Shown here piece after piece: positions 9,831 to 27,482 of a stretch of DNA of 27,672 bases. The position numbers and the translations under genes are program-made. Position 1 is the first letter of the stretch; each line of letters starts with the position of its first letter. Location of the stretch: the IMG/VR virus record IMGVR_UViG_3300011258_000831, positions 1 to 27,672 of that record; one strand, written 5' to 3'. The notes below the pieces were generated by a model, which saw only the letters and a program-made list of their open reading frames with translations, was not told the DNA's origin and did no database searches. The DNA is from a virus.

Positions 9831-10808
9831 TTATAAAAATGCAGCCAAATCTTCAACACGACCATATTTCTTAAGACGTTCTTCTGCCTTACGATTGCGA
9901 CTAGCTTTAGGCTTGGGCGCTTTTGGTCTGATGATTTTTGGTGCTGCTTTAACTTTCTTCATTTGTATAGGTTTCTGAGTCTCAAGACTACGAAACTTCA
10001 TAGCGTCATGAAGCATATGCACTAACTTGCCACCATCTAAAATACCGCCCGCTTTAAATACAGGCGCGGATGTTAGAAATGCCAAATCTTGTTGTGTAAT
10101 GCCATAAGTTTTATGGGCAAAGTCTGTCATTTTCGACTGATATTCCTTGTCTTTAAACTCTGGTATATGCTCTACTATATATGCCTTGTCCTGCTCTTGC
10201 CTTTGACCTCTAGCTTGCATTTCAACTTGTTCAGACTGTGCCATAGTTTCGGTCTTGGTCTGGTCTAACTGTGAAAGCGTTTGCTGTACCGATTCATACT
10301 TCGCTTGTAGCGCTACGTATTTGGATGGGTCTGTGGCGGCTAGTTGTGGCGTTAGTTCTGCTAGTTCTGGCGCTGCATTCTGAATCACAAAAGCCTTTAG
10401 CTGCTCTATTTGCTCGGCTGATTGCGTTTGTGTCTGAATGAATGCGTTTTGATACTCAACTTCTTTTTGCCTTACCGTTTCCGCTTCGGCCTGTCTTTTC
10501 CGCGTGTAATCACTTGAAAGCATGTAGCCTTCTGCAAGCTCTTCTAGTGTTAGTTCTTTTTCTTCATCCTCACCACGTTCGTTCTTTACAGTAAGTTTGA
10601 ATTTTTCACCATCACTTGTCGCTTCTTCTTCTGGCTCTGTTTCTTCTTCATCTGCTTCAGACTCTTCATCCTCATCTTCTTCTTCGGGTTGTCCGTCCTC
10701 GTCATCTACTTGCTCATCTTCTTCTTTAAGCTCTTCGATTTCTTCAATTGGATCCTCAGAAAATGCATCTGCTAAGTCTTGGACTCCCTCATCAGGTTGG
10801 TCGCTCAT
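9831..10808 (-). CDS. Scaffolding protein
   Basis: A 325-aa protein. Residues 1-70 are extremely acidic (long runs of Glu and Asp). Then comes a short beta segment (EKFKLTVKNERGEDEEKELT), a helical coiled-coil-like Gln/Glu-rich stretch (~105-210) and a basic C-terminus (KPIQMKKVKAAPKIIRPKAP onward). An acidic helical body with a basic coat-binding tail is the usual plan of phage scaffolds. The gene immediately precedes the capsid gene. The LTLEELAEGYMLSSDYTRK motif recurs in scaffold proteins of related phages. AAAGGAG precedes the start. No protease motif was seen. Confidence 0.85.
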   Translation of the reverse strand: MSDQPDEGVQDLADAFSEDPIEEIEELKEEDEQVDDEDGQPEEEDEDEESEADEEETEPEEEATSDGEKFKLTVKNERGEDEEKELTLEELAEGYMLSSDYTRKRQAEAETVRQKEVEYQNAFIQTQTQSAEQIEQLKAFVIQNAAPELAELTPQLAATDPSKYVALQAKYESVQQTLSQLDQTKTETMAQSEQVEMQARGQRQEQDKAYIVEHIPEFKDKEYQSKMTDFAHKTYGITQQDLAFLTSAPVFKAGGILDGGKLVHMLHDAMKFRSLETQKPIQMKKVKAAPKIIRPKAPKPKASRNRKAEERLKKYGRVEDLAAFL

Positions 10809-15569: not shown

Positions 15570-17744
15570 TTATTGAATACTGCCTGTTAATTGCTCTCCG
15601 TCTGAAGTCGCTACCTGAATAACGCCATTTTCAACAACGGCCTCGTAAACCTTGCCACTAGGCGCTTGCATTCTCATGACTTTGCGCTTCTTATCTCGAT
15701 CTAATACATTGCCCTCAATATCTACTTCTAAATTGCTGTTAGATAATTCACCACTAGCTTGAAGCATTACTTTTTCTAATTGGTGAATGCGAGCATCGAC
15801 AGACTTCTCAGCCTGTAACTGATTAACATCGGTTTTCTTAACTTCATTTTCAGACTTGAGCTTGTCGTTTTCTTCTTTAGTTTTCTGTAATTCTTCGCCA
15901 CCCTGTTTTAACGCCTCTTGCATCTGTTGAATTTGCTGCTGTACTTGTGGCGGGATTTGCGGCTGTGCTTCTTTATCTTCAGGGTCAGTAAAGAACTCAC
16001 CAACATCTTTAAAGCCTGAGTTTTCAGACATGCGGCTAGTCAAGTTATAAATGTTCTTATCGCTGACTAGGTTATTCTTACCACCAGCTAGCAACTTCTC
16101 TTGAGCCATAGCTATTTGTTGGAAAGCAAGCATATTCTGCTCTTTATCGCCTGTACCTAATCCAACGTTAATAACCATATCATAGCCGTCACGCCATTCT
16201 TGAGGATTGTACTTAACAAACTTATTACTTAGCTTAAAGCTGATTTCATCCATTGAATAATCAGATAGCGTTTTAAATATACCTCTAAACATTGGGGCAA
16301 CTAAACACTCAGCTAGTATGCGACTCATCAACTTCATGCGTTTCTGGCTGGCATTCATTATTAGGCTAACACCGCGAGCCGTTTGATTTAACGCATCACT
16401 GTCTAAGCCTTGTGAATATCTTGTGAAGCCTGTGCGGTTCTCTTTATTCTGGTCTAAGAACTCAAACATAGGGATGGTTTGACCGCCTAACCACTGGTGA
16501 TCCATTGGCCTAGCTGCACCTGCTACAGACTCACGAACTATTCCCCCTGGTCTTGGGTTCAATAAGTCGTCAATGTTTGCTTTTGGATTGCCGTTCTGAT
16601 CTGTTAATACAGCCGTGCGCTGGTTGTTTGTATATGACAAATTATCCATTGTTTGCCGCCAGATTTCAGATTTCATTTTCTGGATGTCTGTTACAAAGTC
16701 ATGAATAGATAAGCCATAGAATTGGTGCGTTAGTATTGTAGGTGTCCATGCTGCCAATGGCACATGTGAAACCTCTTGCACTTCTAGGATAGTGTCATTT
16801 AAACGATAAACACGTAAACGTTCTGCAATACCATCACCGTCTAAGTCGAATAATATATATTCTTCTTTAAGCCAGCCCTCTTGCATTTCATCATCACCAC
16901 GATGATCTAATTCGTCATCATCATAGCTGTCATTGCGTAAGTTTTCTGACTCATCATCATAATCACTCATTGAGGCTTTTAAATCTTCAACATCAACATT
17001 AAAGCCCATTTCCTGCATATCTGATAATGTCTTACGGCATACATGAGCCACATAAGGGCAGTTATCCAACAGAATGCTTGAGTGGTTGCGTGATACCAGT
17101 AATTCTTCTGGCGGGATGTTGTGTAATACAACTTTGCCTTTTGTTTTGACTATGCGTACTTTGCAATCATAAACAATCTGCTGGATTGGTTGGCCTTGCT
17201 CATCTTGTGTTTCTTCTTCTCGTTCTTCTTTTTCTAATATCTCGGCATCTTCATTTTCAGCTAAGTATTGAGCTATTTGTGCCTCTGTAACACCTTTATA
17301 AGTCGTAAAGTCTGGTGTTCTTTTCTCCTCCCAACCCCACTTAACGCCGCCAGTTTTCATCAACAAAGCGTCTTTAATAGCAGTGTATAGAATTAAAAAG
17401 CCATTATTCTGGCGATAGAAAACATAGTTACATGCTGTTGTTGCTTGCTCTGAACCCTCTGCATCTTCTTCGCTTTGAGGGTCAAACTGTACCGCTTTAT
17501 CACTAGACACAAATACATCCAAGATGTCAGGAATCATGCCCTCTACAGCGTCCATCACATCACTAGAGATAACACCGCTGCGGCCTTCTTCTTCATTACC
17601 GTAAGGCTCGCGAAGATACTCACTCATAGCATTCTCACGGTCTTGTGCCAACTTGCCGTGGGTATACTCAGCCGCGCTTTCTTCTTCAGCATTCAAAGCC
17701 GATAAAAGCTCATATTCCTGATCTTCGTTAATGTTAGATTTCAT
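15570..17744 (-). CDS. Portal protein, P22-like size class
   Basis: A 724-aa protein, essentially the length of P22 gp1 (725 aa). The N-terminus is acidic and helical (ENAMSEYLREPYGNEEEGRS). It is followed by the family's RSGVISSDVMDAVEGMIPDI segment (~55-74), which is characteristic of this portal type. Residues ~315-460 carry the wing/stem region with PLAAWTPTILTHQFYGLSIH (~332-351) and DQNKENRTGFTRYSQGLDSDALNQTARG (~428-455). The C-terminal ~120 residues are Gln/Glu-rich and helical, like a barrel domain, and end in a small beta segment. It forms the dodecameric ring through which terminase packages DNA. The start overlaps the upstream gene, with GAAGG as Shine-Dalgarno. Confidence 0.88.
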   Translation of the reverse strand: MKSNINEDQEYELLSALNAEEESAAEYTHGKLAQDRENAMSEYLREPYGNEEEGRSGVISSDVMDAVEGMIPDILDVFVSSDKAVQFDPQSEEDAEGSEQATTACNYVFYRQNNGFLILYTAIKDALLMKTGGVKWGWEEKRTPDFTTYKGVTEAQIAQYLAENEDAEILEKEEREEETQDEQGQPIQQIVYDCKVRIVKTKGKVVLHNIPPEELLVSRNHSSILLDNCPYVAHVCRKTLSDMQEMGFNVDVEDLKASMSDYDDESENLRNDSYDDDELDHRGDDEMQEGWLKEEYILFDLDGDGIAERLRVYRLNDTILEVQEVSHVPLAAWTPTILTHQFYGLSIHDFVTDIQKMKSEIWRQTMDNLSYTNNQRTAVLTDQNGNPKANIDDLLNPRPGGIVRESVAGAARPMDHQWLGGQTIPMFEFLDQNKENRTGFTRYSQGLDSDALNQTARGVSLIMNASQKRMKLMSRILAECLVAPMFRGIFKTLSDYSMDEISFKLSNKFVKYNPQEWRDGYDMVINVGLGTGDKEQNMLAFQQIAMAQEKLLAGGKNNLVSDKNIYNLTSRMSENSGFKDVGEFFTDPEDKEAQPQIPPQVQQQIQQMQEALKQGGEELQKTKEENDKLKSENEVKKTDVNQLQAEKSVDARIHQLEKVMLQASGELSNSNLEVDIEGNVLDRDKKRKVMRMQAPSGKVYEAVVENGVIQVATSDGEQLTGSIQ

Positions 17745-17991: not shown

Positions 17992-18155
17992 GGCAAAACC
18001 TTATAAGTGACAGATACAACCACGTCTTTCCCATCGCTTGTTTTAACTTTAATTTTCATGCCGACCTTTACTTCGCCGTAATGTTTGCAACTACTCGCCG
18101 CCTCGCTTTTAATAAGTTGGTAAGCCGCCTCTATATCATCTTGGGTTATTTTCAT
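17988..18155 (-). CDS. 55-aa small phage protein between terminase and portal
   Basis: A 55-residue frame with an ATG at 18155 that overlaps the terminase stop (TAATG) and a TGA that overlaps the next GTG start. It begins MKITQDDIEAAYQLIKSEAA and then forms a beta hairpin-like end (KVGMKIKVKTSDGKDVVV). It is too short to assign, but the tight coupling on both sides supports it as a real gene. Confidence 0.7.
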   Translation of the reverse strand: MKITQDDIEAAYQLIKSEAASSCKHYGEVKVGMKIKVKTSDGKDVVVSVTYKVLP

Positions 18156-19411
18156 TAAATTAGTGGCCTTACGTTATAGTTAATCTCTTTATAAGCCATG
18201 CCATTGCCCATTAAGTCAATTGCTAATGCTAGATACCTGAAAGCGTCTGCGCCGTGCGAAAACTCATCATGCTGTGGTTTACCCGCTTCACCTGTTTTAT
18301 TGCTTACGTTGCGCTTATATCGCTTCAAGCATTCGATTAATCTAGCCGTCTTAGTCTTGTCAAAATAAACTCTAGGGAATACCATGCGAGCAGCTTTAAT
18401 GCCGTTCTCTATATTCATTTCCGTTAGTTCTTCTCTTGTCGGAACGCTCCAACCTAAGCCGCGCATAATCTCTACTGCGCTATCAGCATTTACTGATTGG
18501 TTGTAACCATCGTGAGGCAATATCATATTTCCCCATGAATACGGCCTATCCTTAAGCATCTGTGAGTAATCGGTTAGCTTCTTATGGCTATCTTCTATGT
18601 AATCAATAACTCTAAGCTCTGAGCCGTTACGCTGCACCATGATGATTGACATCGCATCATTCCAGCCCAAGTCAACCACAACATGAACCAATAGCTTTGG
18701 ATCATATGGCGCATTACATAACCTGCCATCATCTTGAGCCTGTTGCATTTCATCGTAGTAGATAGCGCCTTCTGCTGCTGGCCTACACTTACCCTCCCAT
18801 ATGTTCGGGTAGTCTTTAGGCTGCGTCTTAAAGCAATGTAATCGCTCTTGCTCTAACACATCAGGGAACCATACATTTTCTGTATAGTTCATCACAACAT
18901 TAGTACAGTTGTCAGGAGGGTTAATAGTGAAGCGTTGGTGCGTTTCGTCTGTATCTAAGTCAGGATTGTATGTAATCCATATTTCAGAATTAGGCTTACG
19001 TATTGTTGGAATTAATATATCCCATGAACGCTTTGAAACATTTTGTGCCTCTTCACACCAAACAACATCAACACCTTCATAAGACTTTAAGCTGTCAACT
19101 GTCTCACTACTAAGCCCTGCAAAATAAAACTCCGTTCCGTTAATGCCGCGTATCTCAGTCTTTAATACTTCATAGAATTTAGATAAGCCTAATGTTTGTA
19201 TCTGATCGCTTAACAGTTGATGAACCGATTGCTGAATAGACTTTTGTATTTCCCTGGTACATAAGAAGCGTAGAGGCTCTTTGGTTCCTTTAATCAATAA
19301 AGCTCTTGCCACACTCCATGACTTAGCCGAACCTCGACCACCTCTTATTACTTTGTAGCGTTTTGGCTCAAACAGGAAAGATAAGCGGTCAGGAAACTTA
19401 ACATTAGCCAC
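18155..19411 (-). CDS. terL: Terminase large subunit, PBSX/Terminase_3 type
   Basis: A 418-aa packaging motor and nuclease. Walker A is RGGRGSAKS at residues 23-31 and Walker B is VDVVWCEEA at about 114-122, with the coupling region GTEFYFAGL just before it. The nuclease domain starts at VVVDLGWNDAMS (Asp247 and Asp252 as likely metal ligands). It ends with HDEFSHGADAFRYLALA, the conserved last acidic motif of this family. The start is GTG at 19411, overlapping the small subunit by 8 bases, with no strong Shine-Dalgarno (coupled translation). It pumps DNA through the portal and cuts concatemers. The motor and nuclease motifs are intact. Confidence 0.93.
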   Translation of the reverse strand: MANVKFPDRLSFLFEPKRYKVIRGGRGSAKSWSVARALLIKGTKEPLRFLCTREIQKSIQQSVHQLLSDQIQTLGLSKFYEVLKTEIRGINGTEFYFAGLSSETVDSLKSYEGVDVVWCEEAQNVSKRSWDILIPTIRKPNSEIWITYNPDLDTDETHQRFTINPPDNCTNVVMNYTENVWFPDVLEQERLHCFKTQPKDYPNIWEGKCRPAAEGAIYYDEMQQAQDDGRLCNAPYDPKLLVHVVVDLGWNDAMSIIMVQRNGSELRVIDYIEDSHKKLTDYSQMLKDRPYSWGNMILPHDGYNQSVNADSAVEIMRGLGWSVPTREELTEMNIENGIKAARMVFPRVYFDKTKTARLIECLKRYKRNVSNKTGEAGKPQHDEFSHGADAFRYLALAIDLMGNGMAYKEINYNVRPLI

Positions 19412-20037: not shown

Positions 20038-20051
20038 ATGTAACGCCCATT

Positions 20052-20073
20052 AAAAAAGCCACCCTTAGGCAGC
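20052..20073 (-). terminator. Intrinsic terminator ahead of the packaging genes
   Basis: On the - strand GCTGCC pairs with GGTGGC (two G-U pairs) around TAAG, followed by TTTTTT. It lies between the 46-aa gene and the 94-aa gene, inside the path of late transcription. Confidence 0.75.
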
Positions 20074-20143
20074 TTGTGATTGTTTGTCGCGCTTCTCACA
20101 TCATCAGTGCGCTAAACTGTAATCTAGGGATGTATCGTTTAAT

Positions 20144-20166
20144 AGCTCTTTTCTTAATTGAGAGCT
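20144..20166. repeat. 6-bp inverted repeat AGCTCT/AGAGCT
   Basis: Two perfect 6-bp arms are separated by 11 bases in the short untranslated stretch after the 46-aa gene. No T run follows on either strand. Weak evidence of function. Confidence 0.35.
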
Positions 20167-20182
20167 AGACGAATTTAATTAG

Positions 20183-20323
20183 TTATTTGCTTGTCACCCT
20201 AATAGCGCCTAATGAGATCATTACACCCTCTACGCTAGAAACAGGGATAATGCCACTGTTGCTAAAATAGCCCCTGAAATAAGATATTCGAGCATCATCG
20301 AAATGGAAATTAACTTTATTCAT
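20183..20323 (-). CDS. 46-aa protein at the head of the late operon
   Basis: A frame of 46 residues beginning MNKVNFHFDDARISYFRGYF and ending GAIRVTSK. AAAGGA lies six bases before the ATG, one of the best ribosome sites in this region. It is the only frame of quality in the ~850-bp stretch 20050-20888. The sequence looks beta-rich and has no recognised motif. As the first gene past the terminator at 20456 it would report on late antitermination. Confidence 0.6.
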   Translation of the reverse strand: MNKVNFHFDDARISYFRGYFSNSGIIPVSSVEGVMISLGAIRVTSK

Positions 20324-20337
20324 ATCAAATCCTTTAA

Positions 20338-20415
20338 GTGACTTTTCGCGGTCTAGTCGTCTACTGGGCTAGTCGTACCCCGTCAGGTGAACACTCGCTG
20401 GCAGTGTACCGCTGT
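20338..20415. repeat. Repeat cluster upstream of the packaging genes
   Basis: This stretch is richer in GC than its surroundings and has no frame. CTAGTCGT occurs twice, at 20353-20360 and 20369-20376 (16-bp step). An inverted repeat follows, with arms GGT(GA)ACACT at 20386-20395 and AGTGTACC at 20403-20410. Such an arrangement just upstream of terminase genes is where cos or pac recognition sites are often found. Function is not shown. Confidence 0.35.
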
Positions 20416-20455
20416 TACTTACCTATCTACTCGAGAATATATAGGCGTAGTAATG

Positions 20456-20486
20456 AAAAAAGCCCACATCCGTTAAGATATGAGCT
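20456..20486 (-). terminator. Strong intrinsic terminator of the late leader
   Basis: On the - strand AGCTCATATC pairs over 10 bp (two G-U) with GATGTGGGCT around a 6-nt loop and is followed by six Ts. It ends the ~350-nt untranslated leader, in the position of lambda tR'. Confidence 0.88.
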
Positions 20487-20641
20487 TGTGTTGAATAAGT
20501 GTTATGACACGATTCTAACGTGCTAGCGGTTTACGACATCCATTACAGCATGCTTGCTTAAGGCATCTACCAAAAGAGGTCAATGGAGAAGAATAGTCAC
20601 ACCTATTAGCCTTAACACTTATACAGCTGATGACTAAATAA

Positions 20642-20710
20642 AAGTGATGGCTTACCTTACTCGCCGACCGAGGATATATTAACCCCTGCTCTACTCTGAG
20701 CTAATCACAC
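20642..20710 (-). other. tRNA-like segment with a good D-arm and no T-loop
   Basis: The 69-nt stretch has tRNA proportions. GTGTGAT can pair over five bases with ATCACTT at the ends. TA then GCTC-AGAGTA-GAGC makes a textbook D-arm at 20688-20701. An anticodon-like arm is poorer (GGGGT/TCCTC, 4 of 5 pairs, no U33). The T-arm region has only GGC/GCC and lacks TTCRA, and no CCA is encoded. It is not a functional elongator tRNA as read; it could be a decayed tRNA or a mimic inside the leader RNA. Confidence 0.3.
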
Positions 20711-20812
20711 ATCCAGTGAATGTTAATCATCATGTGTATAAATACTTAGTTATAGCTAATATTACTGTTTGTTAGTATAACCATTTCTTACTGGCGCACT
20801 TCCCCTACCCCA

Positions 20813-20840
20813 ATAATACCATAATCACAGCTTTGTGCAA
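20813..20840 (-). promoter_or_regulatory. Candidate late promoter
   Basis: On the - strand TTGCAC, 16 bases, then TATTAT matches sigma70 -35/-10 elements. Transcription would start near 20806 and run into the structured leader. It lies directly downstream of the Q-like gene, the place of lambda pR'. Confidence 0.6.
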
Positions 20841-20888: not shown

Positions 20889-21230
20889 TCACACCATCCC
20901 CCTTTTCTCCGCAAGCTTCAGCAATGACTCTAAAGCATCTGCATAATCCATCTCTTGTGTAGGCCAAGTCTTACTATTTCCTAGCCATTTATGTCGCATA
21001 GCATCCCTTTGAGGAAAGCTTAAACTGTCAATAAGCGCGTCAATATCCCTAACAACCTTACTATCAATCTCTTCGCACATGTGGTCGAACGTATCAGGTG
21101 AACTAGAACCTCCACATTGAACAACCAAAGACTCTTTAGGAAAGCCTAACCCGAACTCACTTTCAACATTGCTATGCTTGTAATAATCGCGCCATTCTTC
21201 TAAGCATTCATATAGACGTTCTAGTGTCAT
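20889..21230 (-). CDS. Putative Q-type late antiterminator
   Basis: A 113-aa protein. Its C-terminal part contains SFPQRDAMRHKWLG and WPTQEMDYADALESLLKLAEKRGMV. That resembles the region in short phage antitermination proteins where a HTH-like helix is followed by a Y-xx-AL-xx-L-x-x-A helix. No zinc motif is present. AAAGGAAT precedes the ATG. It is the last gene of the early operon, and its stop lies about 50 bp from a promoter that feeds a leader RNA ending at a terminator, exactly the lambda Q-pR'-tR' layout. Sequence similarity alone is weak; the call leans on position. It could instead be another late regulator. Confidence 0.5.
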   Translation of the reverse strand: MTLERLYECLEEWRDYYKHSNVESEFGLGFPKESLVVQCGGSSSPDTFDHMCEEIDSKVVRDIDALIDSLSFPQRDAMRHKWLGNSKTWPTQEMDYADALESLLKLAEKRGMV

Positions 21231-21243
21231 GTTATTCCTTTAG

Positions 21244-21735
21244 TTAAAATGCTGTGCTTAAAGTGCTGCCAGACGGGTAAGCTTTAGGTGATGGTGGCTT
21301 ACTGCTTCTTACCCTGAGATTTGACACCCCGTTTATTATTGTCCTGCCTGGGCTAATTTCTTCTCTAAGTGGCTTGGCCTTCTTCTCTACTTCATCTTTA
21401 AGAGTCCAGCCTGTCTTAGCAGTAGTTGCTGGCGCTCTCTCTGCTGCCTCTATTGCCGCCATTTCTTTAGCTTCTGAGCTTGCTTTTTTCTTCTCTTGCA
21501 CCTCTAGCCAATCCTCTAGCTTATCTATGCCGCCATCCGCTTGATAGTATCTTTTCTGATTGTGGGCGGTTTCACGAACAACCCTACCAACAAGAAAGCC
21601 ACGCTTAACCATCCTGCCAAGTGTAGAGCTTGCGCTGCTAGTAGATTGATCGCGTATGCCCTGAATCTCTCTAACTGATACACCCATTGCAGCCTTTGCA
21701 AAAATCAACCTGTAATCATCTAATTCAATATTCAT
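21244..21735 (-). CDS. Winged-helix DNA-binding protein with charged tail
   Basis: A 163-aa protein. Residues ~1-70 read as a winged helix: helix LDDYRLIFAKAAMGVSVREIQ, recognition part STSSASSTLGRMVKRGFLV and wing VVRETAHNQKRYYQ, like MarR-type regulators. Residues 75-163 are a charged, Ala/Lys/Glu-rich and then Pro/Ser-rich tail without a predicted domain. It overlaps ninG by 11 bases and has AAGGG before the start. Phage proteins with this plan occur between nin genes and the antiterminator. The role, perhaps transcription control or replication, is unknown. Confidence 0.65.
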   Translation of the reverse strand: MNIELDDYRLIFAKAAMGVSVREIQGIRDQSTSSASSTLGRMVKRGFLVGRVVRETAHNQKRYYQADGGIDKLEDWLEVQEKKKASSEAKEMAAIEAAERAPATTAKTGWTLKDEVEKKAKPLREEISPGRTIINGVSNLRVRSSKPPSPKAYPSGSTLSTAF

Positions 21736-22306
21736 TTTTTAACCCTTCCAACTCTTTACACTTTTGTTTATAAAATAATTCAATCGCTTGTATATCTTCT
21801 ATCGTGTAATTCTTAGCCTCGTTATCAGCTTCTAATGCTTCTGTGGTTTCTTCACCGATTCTAGAGATAAGCCCAAGTCTGTACTTTTGTTGATTTCCAC
21901 TAAGCCAGTTATTGCAGTGTGCACACTGTCCGTGACAATTACGCTCGTCAAATCTGAGATGGGGAGCGCTTCCAACACTGCGATAATGTCCTGCGTGTCG
22001 CTGTCCGTTGTGATTGCTTGATCCATCAGCACTAATACACCCTTTATTTTCATCTCTCAGCCTTATAAATTTATTGAACCAAAATTGTGCTTTCTTTAGC
22101 CAGTAGCTTTTAGGTTGAATCTTTGCTATAGCCTCTTTTGTTTTCTTACGCTCTATTACTGCCCGTTTCTTTTCTAATCGCTTTCTAGCCTTCTCTGCGT
22201 GTGTCTTAGCGCACTCTATGCCGTATGTTGTGCATACTTGGGTAGTGCTTGAGTAAGGCGTAAACAATGTGCCGCATACCTTGCATTTCTTCTGCTTAAC
22301 CTTCAT
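21725..22306 (-). CDS. ninG: NinG (Rap) recombination protein
   Basis: A 193-aa member of the lambda NinG/Rap family (Pfam NinG). The start is the ATG at 22306; a TTG three bases earlier is a weaker choice. The N-terminal zinc-like motif is C8-x2-C11 with C25 and C32. Residues ~35-70 are a basic helical stretch. The C-terminal half has the HNH-like core with HAGHYRSVGSAPHLRFDERN followed by CHGQCAHCNNWLSGN and a final helix. In lambda, Rap cuts D-loops and Holliday-type junctions in Red recombination. It overlaps ninB upstream and the winged-helix gene downstream. The cysteine and histidine residues look intact. Confidence 0.9.
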   Translation of the reverse strand: MKVKQKKCKVCGTLFTPYSSTTQVCTTYGIECAKTHAEKARKRLEKKRAVIERKKTKEAIAKIQPKSYWLKKAQFWFNKFIRLRDENKGCISADGSSNHNGQRHAGHYRSVGSAPHLRFDERNCHGQCAHCNNWLSGNQQKYRLGLISRIGEETTEALEADNEAKNYTIEDIQAIELFYKQKCKELEGLKNEY

Positions 22307-22658
22307 CAAAAATAAATCCCTGTTGTGCTGCTAATCTCTCTATGCGCTCTTGATAATCAGCCATTTCAGCCGTGTTAAGTTTTGTTGTTGATGGTATAAA
22401 TGTTCGTCTTAGCCCATCTCTGCATATCTTTTCATACCGTAAAAACTTGTAGCCCATCAATTGATGCATTTCGTCACGCTCATAACCTACATGCTCGCCA
22501 AACGCTGTTACCAGCTTCCAGTACCTTGCGTTTTGGTCTAAGCTTCGCTTGCTTTTCCACGGCTTCCAGCTAACCGCCCACCTCTCCGTAGGGTCAAGTG
22601 CTTCTAGCTGCTTGAATAGATGAGAGTGGTTGCCGTTAGTTAGAGTGTATTTATTCAA
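22296..22658 (-). CDS. ninB: NinB (Orf) recombination mediator
   Basis: A 120-aa protein with the NinB signature WAVSWKPWKSKRSLDQNARYW (residues ~32-52), the DNA-binding and dimer region of lambda Orf, followed by LVTAFGEHVGYERDEMHQLM and a C-terminal helix. In lambda it binds ssDNA and SSB to help load recombinases. The only usable start is TTG at 22658, which overlaps the previous stop (TTGA) and has GGGGA about nine bases upstream. Paired with NinG as in lambda nin regions. Confidence 0.9.
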   Translation of the reverse strand: MNKYTLTNGNHSHLFKQLEALDPTERWAVSWKPWKSKRSLDQNARYWKLVTAFGEHVGYERDEMHQLMGYKFLRYEKICRDGLRRTFIPSTTKLNTAEMADYQERIERLAAQQGFIFDEG

Positions 22659-24807: not shown

Positions 24808-25454
24808 GCTGTAACCTCCCCTGTGTTTTTATTAGGCAGGCTCAATGTCTCGGATAGTGATTTAAATTGAAGGTTTGATTTCTTATTGCCGTTTGCTAAA
24901 ACAGCCATCGCCTGTTCGTGATTGCCAATTAATACAGGGTTGTCAGACTTGTGATAACCATTAACAAAGTTCTCTGATTCAGCGCGACCAATCATCACAG
25001 GCAGATGTTCTACAGACTCATTACGTTGCTTATAACCGCGATAGCGAGTTTCAAATTCTTTGGCAACAAAAGGCCATTCATCGCTCTGCTTCATTCCCAC
25101 AGCCAACCAGCCGCCCATGTCCTGCAAAACCTTGTGTATTAAGCCATCATCAAACACAACGCTAGACCATGTACCAACACCTCTAACTGCCTTATCAACC
25201 TTAGCCCATGCAATCATGGCGCTGTCTTGTGTACTGCCCTGCATCATCTTCACAAAGTCTGCAATCTTAGGCATAAACATACCGTTATCAGGGTTTTGCA
25301 AATGTCTACCCATTGTTTGCTTAACAGCATCAAAGTCGTATGAATCTAAGCCTTGCCAATAAAGCATTTTCAAGCCGTCTGATAATGTTTTGTTGTATTG
25401 TTCTGCAACTAAATCTAAGTGTTCGCAGAATGGTTTAAAGTCTTGCTGATTCAT
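24804..25454 (-). CDS. Replication partner protein, DUF6475-like
   Basis: I choose the ATG at 25454 (216 aa), which has AAAAGGA eight bases upstream; an upstream TTG frame ten codons longer lacks a site. The protein contains QDFKPFCEHLDLVAEQYNKT, then YDFDAVKQTMGRHLQNPDNG and FMPKIADFVKMMQG. That is the helical plan of lambda-P-like or DnaT-like loaders annotated as DUF6475, followed by a WAKVDKAVRGVGTW segment. It probably recruits or loads the host helicase at the origin bound by the Rep product. It overlaps rep by 20 bases. Confidence 0.7.
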   Translation of the reverse strand: MNQQDFKPFCEHLDLVAEQYNKTLSDGLKMLYWQGLDSYDFDAVKQTMGRHLQNPDNGMFMPKIADFVKMMQGSTQDSAMIAWAKVDKAVRGVGTWSSVVFDDGLIHKVLQDMGGWLAVGMKQSDEWPFVAKEFETRYRGYKQRNESVEHLPVMIGRAESENFVNGYHKSDNPVLIGNHEQAMAVLANGNKKSNLQFKSLSETLSLPNKNTGEVTA

Positions 25455-26181
25455 CTGTGATGTCCTTTTCTGACTGATTGCCAAATAGTTTTTCGTATGC
25501 TGCGTCTGTGTTTTGTTTGTTTTCAGTTGCTATATTTTTTACCGCCCTGCCTTTTGGCATGTAAACGTCTTTCCAGCTAGAGCGAATAGATGCTTGAATC
25601 GCCAGAGATGGGTCGTGTCCAGCGTCGCGTATTTTCTTAAGTTCGGTAATTAATGACTTGATTGCAGGAATGGTATTTTTGGCTTTTAAGCCTTTACGCA
25701 TTTCTAAAAAATCATTCCAAAGCTCGATTGGGATAAAGTCTGGAATTGGTAATTTTTCTACAGCGGATTTATCCGCGCTTTTTGTTTTGTTTTTATCTTT
25801 CTCTTTATCTACTTCTTTATCTATATCTATATCTACTTCTTGCTTAGAAGTTACTTGCAAGTTTTTAGTGTGGTTATCCCTATATTTCAATAGGTTAGGT
25901 ATTTTGATGGTGATGTTGTCAGAGCCACGTTGAACCAACATCAAGCCAACGTCAGAGCAACATTGGCATAGAAAAATGAATTTTTTAGACGTGATGTTTG
26001 CTTGACGACCCCACCTCGATAGGCTGTAAGTCACTTCATGTTTGTTAGAAGCGTCTATAACTAAAGCTACTATTTCTAACATTTTGAAATAAAAACCATA
26101 GCCTTCTAATCCTGCTTTATCTTCTAATAAAGCAATGCGTTCATCGTTGCGAGCGTTCGCATGGTGTTTAAACCACTTCAT
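25435..26181 (-). CDS. Replication initiator, DUF4373/Lin1244-type N-terminus
   Basis: A 248-aa protein. Residues 1-105 match the phage replication-initiator plan: MKWFKHHANARNDERIALLE, EGYGFYFKMLEIVA, an HTH part and IPNLLKYRDNHTKNLQ. A highly charged linker rich in Lys/Asp/Glu follows (~113-140), then a C-terminal helical domain with FIPIELWNDFLEMRKGLKAK. Proteins of this type bind the origin, often inside their own gene, as lambda O does. The start overlaps the stop of the CII-like gene (TGATG). The linker-encoding DNA is AT-rich and repetitive. Confidence 0.75.
   Translation of the reverse strand: MKWFKHHANARNDERIALLEDKAGLEGYGFYFKMLEIVALVIDASNKHEVTYSLSRWGRQANITSKKFIFLCQCCSDVGLMLVQRGSDNITIKIPNLLKYRDNHTKNLQVTSKQEVDIDIDKEVDKEKDKNKTKSADKSAVEKLPIPDFIPIELWNDFLEMRKGLKAKNTIPAIKSLITELKKIRDAGHDPSLAIQASIRSSWKDVYMPKGRAVKNIATENKQNTDAAYEKLFGNQSEKDITDESARL
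25763..25850. other. Candidate replication origin inside rep
   Basis: A perfect inverted repeat (GCGGAT TT ATCCGC, 25763-25776) abuts a ~70-bp AT-rich, strand-asymmetric stretch with repeated TTTATC/TATATC units (25790-25845), within the part of rep that encodes the charged linker. Lambda-type origins lie in the same place in gene O. The repeats may equally reflect the low-complexity linker codons. Confidence 0.3.
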
Positions 26182-26624: not shown

Positions 26625-26810
26625 TTATTCTTTACTTTTAAAATGATTGAATATAGGCGTGATAGTCGCGCTCCTAGGGTCAATCGTTTCTTGATAACGA
26701 ATGCGTTTAAGGGTATTGAAAGGAACTCCAACCTCTTGAGATATAGCTTCCATATCGGCAAGTGTTATCGCCTTCAGTTTTTCTTTTACATAAATAGTAT
26801 TTGTGTCCAT
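26625..26810 (-). CDS. Cro-like repressor
   Basis: The favoured start, ATG 26810, gives 61 aa beginning MDTNTIYVKEKLKAITLADM. Residues ~17-40 (ADMEAISQEVGVPFNTLKRI) are a HTH: helix 2 MEAISQEVG, turn, helix 3 PFNTLKRI. The size fits Cro. Longer readings from 26819 or 26846 would begin within or upstream of the promoter -10 at 26818-26823. Predicted transcription starts within a base or two of this ATG, so the message would be nearly leaderless; no Shine-Dalgarno exists. It is divergent from the repressor gene, under operator control and followed by a terminator. It probably binds the same operators to shut off repressor synthesis. Confidence 0.7.
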   Translation of the reverse strand: MDTNTIYVKEKLKAITLADMEAISQEVGVPFNTLKRIRYQETIDPRSATITPIFNHFKSKE

Positions 26811-26817
26811 GTCCAAC

Positions 26818-26846
26818 ATCTTATCGCATCCGATAAGAATATACAA
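26818..26846 (-). promoter_or_regulatory. Early promoter for cro and the - strand operon
   Basis: On the - strand TTGTAT, 17 bases, TAAGAT. The spacer contains operator 26821-26836, so repressor bound there would occlude RNA polymerase. Its layout is the mirror of the promoter at 27324-27352. Confidence 0.65.
26821..26836. promoter_or_regulatory. Operator 1, TTATCGCATCCGATAA
   Basis: A near-perfect 16-bp palindrome with arms TTATCG/CGATAA. It lies in the spacer of the cro promoter, 33 bp centre to centre from operator 2. Confidence 0.8.
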
Positions 26847-26853
26847 GTTAAAT

Positions 26854-26869
26854 CTATCGGATTTGATAA
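26854..26869. promoter_or_regulatory. Operator 2, CTATCGGATTTGATAA
   Basis: A degenerate copy of the 16-bp palindrome, just upstream of the repressor start codons and of the cro promoter -35. It could mediate autoregulation of the repressor. Confidence 0.7.
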
Positions 26870-26892
26870 ATAAATATATGTACTATTTAATA

Positions 26893-27240
26893 ATGGATAG
26901 CAAAAAGATATTAAAAGCCAATGTTGAGGCGTTAATGATTCACAGATATGGGAAAATAAACCTTAATAAAACGCATCTTGAATCTAAAGCTCGCAATAAA
27001 GATATGGCTATCAGCATCGGCTCATTGCAAAGGTTATTAGATGCTGTTAACTCTACAGGCATTGATGTCGTTGATAAGATTGCTTATTTCTTTGATATGC
27101 AATCATGGCAATTGCTATCCCCTGTCTTTGATGCAAGCAACCCGCCAGCCATTAAACAGCGATCTAAAACCGAAGATGATTTATACGAAAAACTAATGAA
27201 AGCAGCAGAAGATTTAGAAGAGTATAAAACAGGAAAGTAA
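26893..27240 (+). CDS. Short phage repressor, Xre-like, without peptidase domain
   Basis: 115 aa from ATG 26893 (MDSKKILKANVEALM); an in-frame ATG at 26878 would add five residues. Neither has a Shine-Dalgarno. The core matches the Xre plan: ANVEALMIHRYG, then a HTH with ESKARNKDMAISIGSLQRLL, IDVVDKIAYFFDMQSWQLL, and the SPVFDASNPP tail that often follows such HTHs. A charged helical C-terminus follows (~90-115), perhaps for oligomerisation. There is no LexA-type peptidase domain, so RecA-driven self-cleavage is unlikely. The gene is divergent from cro, flanked by two operator pairs and followed by its own terminator, so it is the likely immunity repressor. Confidence 0.75.
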   Translation: MDSKKILKANVEALMIHRYGKINLNKTHLESKARNKDMAISIGSLQRLLDAVNSTGIDVVDKIAYFFDMQSWQLLSPVFDASNPPAIKQRSKTEDDLYEKLMKAAEDLEEYKTGK

Positions 27241-27258
27241 TACATACTTATAAATAAG

Positions 27259-27282
27259 GCCAGCTTAATTGCTGGCTTTTTT
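27259..27282 (+). terminator. Intrinsic terminator after the repressor gene
   Basis: GCCAGC pairs perfectly with GCTGGC around TTAATT and runs into TTTTTT. It insulates repressor transcription from the promoter at 27324. Confidence 0.88.
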
Positions 27283-27300
27283 ACGTCTATCGCAAATTAT

Positions 27301-27316
27301 TTATCGAATATGATAA
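27301..27316. promoter_or_regulatory. Operator 3, TTATCGAATATGATAA
   Basis: Third copy of the 16-bp palindrome, upstream of the + strand promoter -35; 33 bp centre to centre from operator 4. Confidence 0.75.
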
Positions 27317-27323
27317 TAAGTGC

Positions 27324-27352
27324 TTGACTTGTCTTATCGCATTCGATAAACT
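27324..27352 (+). promoter_or_regulatory. Early + strand promoter (pL-like)
   Basis: TTGACT, 17 bases, TAAACT, with operator 4 inside the spacer. Transcription would start near 27359 and lead to the gene at 27483. Confidence 0.68.
27334..27349. promoter_or_regulatory. Operator 4, TTATCGCATTCGATAA
   Basis: Best match to the palindromic consensus, located between the -35 and -10 of the + strand early promoter. Confidence 0.8.
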
Positions 27353-27443
27353 TATAAACATCGACAAAGCAACACTTCGCCGCACTCCAATAGGACAGGC
27401 TTGATATGGCGCTAAGTTGAAATGATTACTTGCAGTAGGTTTA

Positions 27444-27467
27444 TAGGGCGGTTCATTGCCCTACTTT
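27444..27467 (+). terminator. Terminator-like hairpin in the leader of the right-edge gene
   Basis: TAGGGC pairs with GCCCTA (6 bp, 8-nt loop), followed by CTTTTTA. It stands between the early + strand promoter and the gene at 27483, directly before the ribosome site AAAGGA, so it may act as an attenuator. Confidence 0.55.
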
Positions 27468-27482
27468 TTAAAGGATATGACG

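Follow-up and report, generated by a model that had tools for sequence, protein, structure and literature searches.

What, if anything, does a phage gain from some 350 nt of untranslated RNA placed between a promoter and a terminator, beside a gene resembling that of the late antiterminator Q? The question is raised by a viral contig of 27,672 bases (IMG/VR virus record IMGVR_UViG_3300011258_000831, positions 1 to 27,672), the whole of which was analysed and is here called the window; its features and those of related loci are collected in Table 1. Late transcription under Q control is held up at a leader terminator: only polymerase that has taken up Q close to where transcription starts reads past it. 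In such units Q binds an element lying between −35 and −10, and a pause element resembling a −10 occurs among the first bases transcribed. The minus strand of the window carries, in order, an O-like replication gene, NinB, NinG, the Q-like gene and terminase, which is the order of lambdoid phages; a 163-aa gene on the same strand lies between NinG and the Q-like gene. The leader (20840–20456) sits at the place of lambda pR′ and tR′: the 113-aa gene, probably Q, ends at 20889, the promoter follows directly at 20840, and an untranslated leader with an intrinsic terminator precedes the late genes, terminase lying downstream. No DNA similarity to the leader region was found in phage and plasmid collections, and searches of bacterial genomes with the terminase and the Q-like protein found no relatives. 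Between the leader terminator and a 94-aa gene lie a further ~400 nt (20040–20455), with a sole frame of 46 aa (20183–20323, minus strand) and a second terminator-like site at 20075–20056.

Table 1. Features of the window, and RNA elements in the same interval of relatives (loci prefixed L).
Feature	Position	Strand	Basis or remark
O-like replication gene	25435-26181	-	
NinB	22296-22658	-	
NinG	21725-22309	-	
113-aa gene, probable late antiterminator (Q-like)	20889..21230	-	weak similarity and neighbourhood
-35-like hexamer TTGCAC	20835..20840	-	segment aligned with L028
-10-like hexamer TATTAT	20813..20818	-	seen across relatives
Conserved transcript start GGGGAAGTGCGCC AGTAAGAAATG	20782..20805	-	5′-end hairpin in relatives, weak in window
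Lineage-specific untranslated insert, conserved start to terminator	20488..20781	-	absent in most relatives, unrelated in L028
Long imperfect hairpin, 5′ side (about 40 pairs)	20724..20783	-	pair probabilities 0.95-0.99
Long imperfect hairpin, 3′ side	20594..20636	-	pair probabilities; segment z
tRNA D-arm-like stretch GTGATTAGCTCAGAGTAGAGCA	20687..20708	-	apical loop of long hairpin; not a tRNA
14-nt strand of the sequence-only reading ATAAGTGTTAAGGC	20609..20622	-	exact complements 20558-20564, 20495-20501; fold disfavoured
Intrinsic terminator (tR′-like)	20456..20487	-	form common to L028 and L130
Terminase large subunit, first late gene recognised downstream of leader	18155..19411	-	
Portal	15570-17744	-	
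Scaffold	9831-10808	-	
Pseudoknot RNA	L139:6503-6626; L038:6267-6388; L048:3355-3484		
Pseudoknot RNA, further loci	L173, L178, L191, L192, L155, L146, L132, L159, L162, L170, L174, L203		
~330-nt module	L038:5860-6290; L048:2895-3305; L041:5590-5995; L045:5955-6350; L124:3530-3925		

Neighbourhood and weak similarity make the 113-aa protein a probable Q. The protein itself gave no significant match to any Pfam or PHROG family, the Phage_antitermQ model PF06530 included; a public relative at 30.9% identity is annotated as antitermination protein Q. Relatives were gathered by searches with the protein and with alignments built from it. The closest, L028, encodes a Q-like protein of 51% identity, followed by those of L038–L048 and L124–L131 (36–49%) and by several dozen more at 33–39%. 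PF06530 was matched by 3/23 relatives (best E 0.0029) and the sigma-70 region 4 model, weakly, by 8/23 (best E about 1e-3). The 21Q-type fold is sigma region 4 plus an added N-terminal helix, and domains of sigma region 4 were the first PDB matches of the predicted structure of the 113-aa protein (pLDDT 69.6), at E about 1. Phage 21 Q itself is described as having a fold like sigma region 4 (PMC6606751), a likeness that the predicted structure of the window protein may extend to it. Together with the neighbourhood, these weak resemblances suggest that the 113-aa protein works as a Q.

The promoter TTGCAC-16-TATTAT proposed in an earlier sequence-only reading was found on the minus strand (20840–20835, 16 nt, 20818–20813). 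It was unlisted by a simple scan because its −35 agrees with the consensus at only 3/6 positions; the call is supported because L028 (68% over 94 nt, E 9e-7) and other relatives keep the segment. A search for the promoter pattern common to the window and L028 recovered L028 alone. In ~50 viral contigs, a count that includes many near-identical ones (29 rows are displayed in the alignment), a Q-like gene (33–52% identity) is followed in the same order and on the same strand by a promoter, a 5′ hairpin and an intrinsic terminator. The transcript starts with GGGCAGAGTTGCGCCCAAAGAAACGTAA in the nearer group of relatives and with GGGATAGTCTCGCCC...CTCCGTA in the farther group; in the window (GGGGAAGTGCGCC AGTAAGAAATG) the motif is kept and the hairpin is weak. 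The hairpin arms vary together: GGG/CCC, GGA/TCC in L104 and L112, GAG/CTC in L048, AGG/CCT in L114 and GAGGG/CCCTC in L028 (pairs taken from aligned rows and single folds, the MAFFT alignment having put the arms out of register). The unit is not seen behind the Q-like gene in some distant contigs, among them L049, L050, L056, L059, L070 and L037; a row for L049 in the unit search was a false match, inside a gene and far from the Q-like gene. As to the terminator of the window, stem and T-run are both present, but the stem has 12 pairs (20487–20476/20471–20460) and not the 10 bp first described.

It is in length that the window departs from most relatives. From hairpin start to T-run there are 348 nt in the window and 468 nt in L028, compared with 44–71 nt in the other relatives, giving ~290 nt of extra RNA in the window and ~400 nt in L028; the leader is indeed as unusually long as had been proposed. 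The window and L028 have the promoter segment and the form of the terminator in common, and their interiors are unrelated, matching neither each other nor any locus compared; the window interior also showed no antisense match to other genes of the contig at E 0.05. Unrelated sequence at this place in relatives, which the sequence-only reading had named as evidence against itself, was thus found in part: both ends are held in common, but the interior is absent or unrelated. No homologue of the interior was found. At the level of sequence, then, direct comparison of the contigs yields the gene order, the unit of promoter, hairpin and terminator, and the absence of the insert elsewhere. The leader had also been said to contain no frame above ~12 codons, which is incorrect, as a stop-free stretch of 61 codons is present at about 20700–20518 on the minus strand; start-to-stop ORFs lying wholly within the leader on that strand do not exceed 22 aa.

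Taken whole, the leader folds a little more stably than expected by chance (z −2.35 and −2.4, with 0/54 background 351-nt windows as low); z is only −1.1 without the terminator, and the 3′ part (20488–20600) shows no folding excess (z +0.6). The leader of L028 folds strongly (z −4.7). The best-supported fold of the window leader is a long imperfect hairpin, absent from the sequence-only reading, in which 20783–20724 pairs with 20636–20594 (10+8+4+9+9 pairs). For the segment 20594–20783, chosen after the fold had been seen, z was −3.6 and 4/1000 shuffles were as good, other 190-nt segments of the contig attaining z −3.0 to −3.8. The fold proposed earlier was a multi-branch junction, in which the 14-nt strand 20622–20609 (ATAAGTGTTAAGGC) pairs perfectly with CACTTAT (20501–20495) and GCCTTAA (20564–20558). 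Both 7-nt pairings are exact, but they are weak evidence: perfect 7+7 complementarity in nested arrangement was present in 6.7% of 2000 dinucleotide shuffles. Forcing the junction gave −80.9 kcal/mol, compared with −95.3 kcal/mol for the best fold, in which the 14-nt strand lies inside the long hairpin; at a cost of 14 kcal/mol and a frequency near chance, the junction is not sustained.

Comparison with known RNA families gave no match to Rfam 15 at gathering score across the whole window, and a further comparison gave nothing above chance level. A tRNA reading of the interior was rejected: neither ARAGORN nor the Rfam model gave a cloverleaf, stretches elsewhere in the contig scored equally with the tRNA-like one, and no viral contig searched held the exact pattern taken from it. 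Relatives do have conserved non-coding modules in the same interval, past the terminator and ahead of the first small gene. One is a pseudoknotted RNA family of ~125 nt with 19 covariance-model matches at E 3e-17 or better (16 distinct sequences), in which 95.2% of cells are paired (0/500 shuffles as high) and 16/29 pairs show changes on both sides, three such pairs being in the pseudoknot helix. It lies mostly just upstream of the start or ribosome-binding site of differing small genes, in some contigs before a terminator, and has no Rfam match. With default filters its covariance model, R1, found nothing in either the window or L028, and with filters off the scores were at chance level; the family is absent from both, and therefore provides no explanation of the window leader. 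It does make the interval more credible as a site of RNA elements. A by-eye likeness of window positions 20312–20445 to this RNA was supported neither by the model nor by folding (z +0.55). Also in this interval of relatives is a conserved non-coding module of ~330 nt, probably structured; the loci scanned for it gave no match to Rfam. In L003, a distant relative, the Q-like gene is separated from a terminator-like hairpin by genes for tRNA-Met and tRNA-Thr (2429–2587).

We consider it likely that 20840–20456 on the minus strand is the late-control leader of the phage, consisting of a promoter, a Q-responsive terminator and, as cargo, an insert of ~290 nt. RNA polymerase would start at the pR′-type promoter just past the Q-like gene, make the leader RNA and halt at the tR′-type terminator unless the Q-like protein had been loaded near the transcript start, in which case it would go on into the head genes. 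What the family conserves is the promoter together with ~30 bases at the 5′ end of the transcript, which suggests that the Q-like protein loads there. The insert, mainly one long hairpin, would be transcribed cargo and, being absent from most relatives, would not be needed by the basic switch itself; we infer both this role and the loading site from the pattern of conservation. The 5′ hairpin, for its part, may pause the polymerase, be bound as RNA by the protein or shield the 5′ end. The sequence-only reading had proposed an unusually long late-control RNA next to a Q-like gene; place and length are both supported, but not the junction that went with it.

Some observations weigh against a late-control leader: the window has a poor −35 and a weak 5′ hairpin, the 113-aa protein has no family match and PDB matches only at E about 1, and some distant contigs lack the unit after the gene. 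The poor −35 and the want of a significant family match would equally suit an unrelated intergenic region, in which a promoter-like sequence happens to precede a terminator and the 113-aa gene is no antiterminator; yet promoter, hairpin and terminator follow the gene in ~50 contigs, with covarying hairpin arms, and we hold such a coincidence to be very unlikely. That the leader RNA suppresses termination by its own structure, with the junction as the active fold, is barely conceivable. HK022 put, as described in PMC9378689, works on early transcription without a phage protein and resembles the window leader in being a folded RNA within a phage control leader, and both exact 7-nt pairings are present; however, the junction is energetically disfavoured and close to chance, a Q-like gene adjoins, and relatives have the promoter-hairpin-terminator unit without the interior, which is dispensable in them. 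Antitermination by structure alone, part of the sequence-only reading, accordingly found no support.

Two further readings concern the insert. Its interior may be decayed or neutral material without present function, derived from tRNA genes, from other genes or from the RNA modules found past the terminator in relatives. The interiors of the window and L028 are dissimilar, 20488–20600 folds no better than chance, a D-arm-like stretch persists without a cloverleaf where L003 has real tRNAs, and the alignment of the window terminator in L130 is to the second terminator there, which lies beyond RNA modules; but the long hairpin is stabler than nearly all shuffles, and phage genomes tend to shed useless DNA, so that we regard a remnant as possible, if rather unlikely. 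Alternatively, and as an addition to the late-control reading, the terminated leader could be a working small RNA like StxS, which binds Hfq and target mRNAs; it would be a stable RNA, made constantly from the late promoter while the switch is closed, with host or phage mRNAs as its targets. For this there is the precedent of StxS itself, a small RNA from the pR′–tR′ interval of Shiga-toxin phages, which processing by RNase E leaves as a stable RNA (PMC7873438). The window leader occupies the same interval of a late region, and its anatomy, known here from sequence alone, is compatible: it is long, folded and ended by an intrinsic terminator, and the unrelated leader of L028 is strongly folded. 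Its sequence, however, is kept in no homologue and has no Rfam match, and its folding excess is modest, all of which leaves a working small RNA unlikely.

In anatomy the window leader is that of ordinary late control, in an unusually long version. As in lambda and phage 21, a Q or probable Q gene is followed by a promoter, by an untranslated leader that ends at an intrinsic terminator, and by the late genes; unlike in those phages, the window protein matches no Q family model, the leader is about 350 nt long, and in the Q-like family the transcript begins with an RNA hairpin whose arms covary. The tRNA genes of L003 are similarly RNA cargo between a Q-like gene and a terminator, although the window interior is no tRNA by any test. 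GOLLD, ROOL and OLE are likewise large non-coding RNAs of bacteria and phages, but neither the window nor the relatives tested gave an Rfam match. What the locus adds is a family of Q-like proteins, identified by where its genes lie, whose partner of promoter, hairpin and terminator is clearly conserved; a template of ~100 bases would therefore suffice for testing where this unstudied antiterminator loads. It also indicates that a late promoter-to-terminator interval can contain hundreds of extra untranslated bases, as with StxS and the tRNA genes, and suggests that interval as a place to seek unknown phage RNAs. More specifically, the stretch from late promoter to first head gene might be a site for RNA cargo and the hairpin RNA of the window a new working non-coding RNA, a proposal we hold as decidedly doubtful; were it true, different phages would hold different structured RNAs there, and that of the window would be made whenever the late switch was closed.

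Elsewhere in the window, several palindromic TTATCGNATNCGATAA-like sites occur at 26819–27354, around a regulator-like gene (26803–27240), and are perhaps candidate repressor operators. The lowest minus-strand folding z of the contig (−3.6 to −3.8) was found at about 27198–27482, adjoining the same gene and near the contig end.
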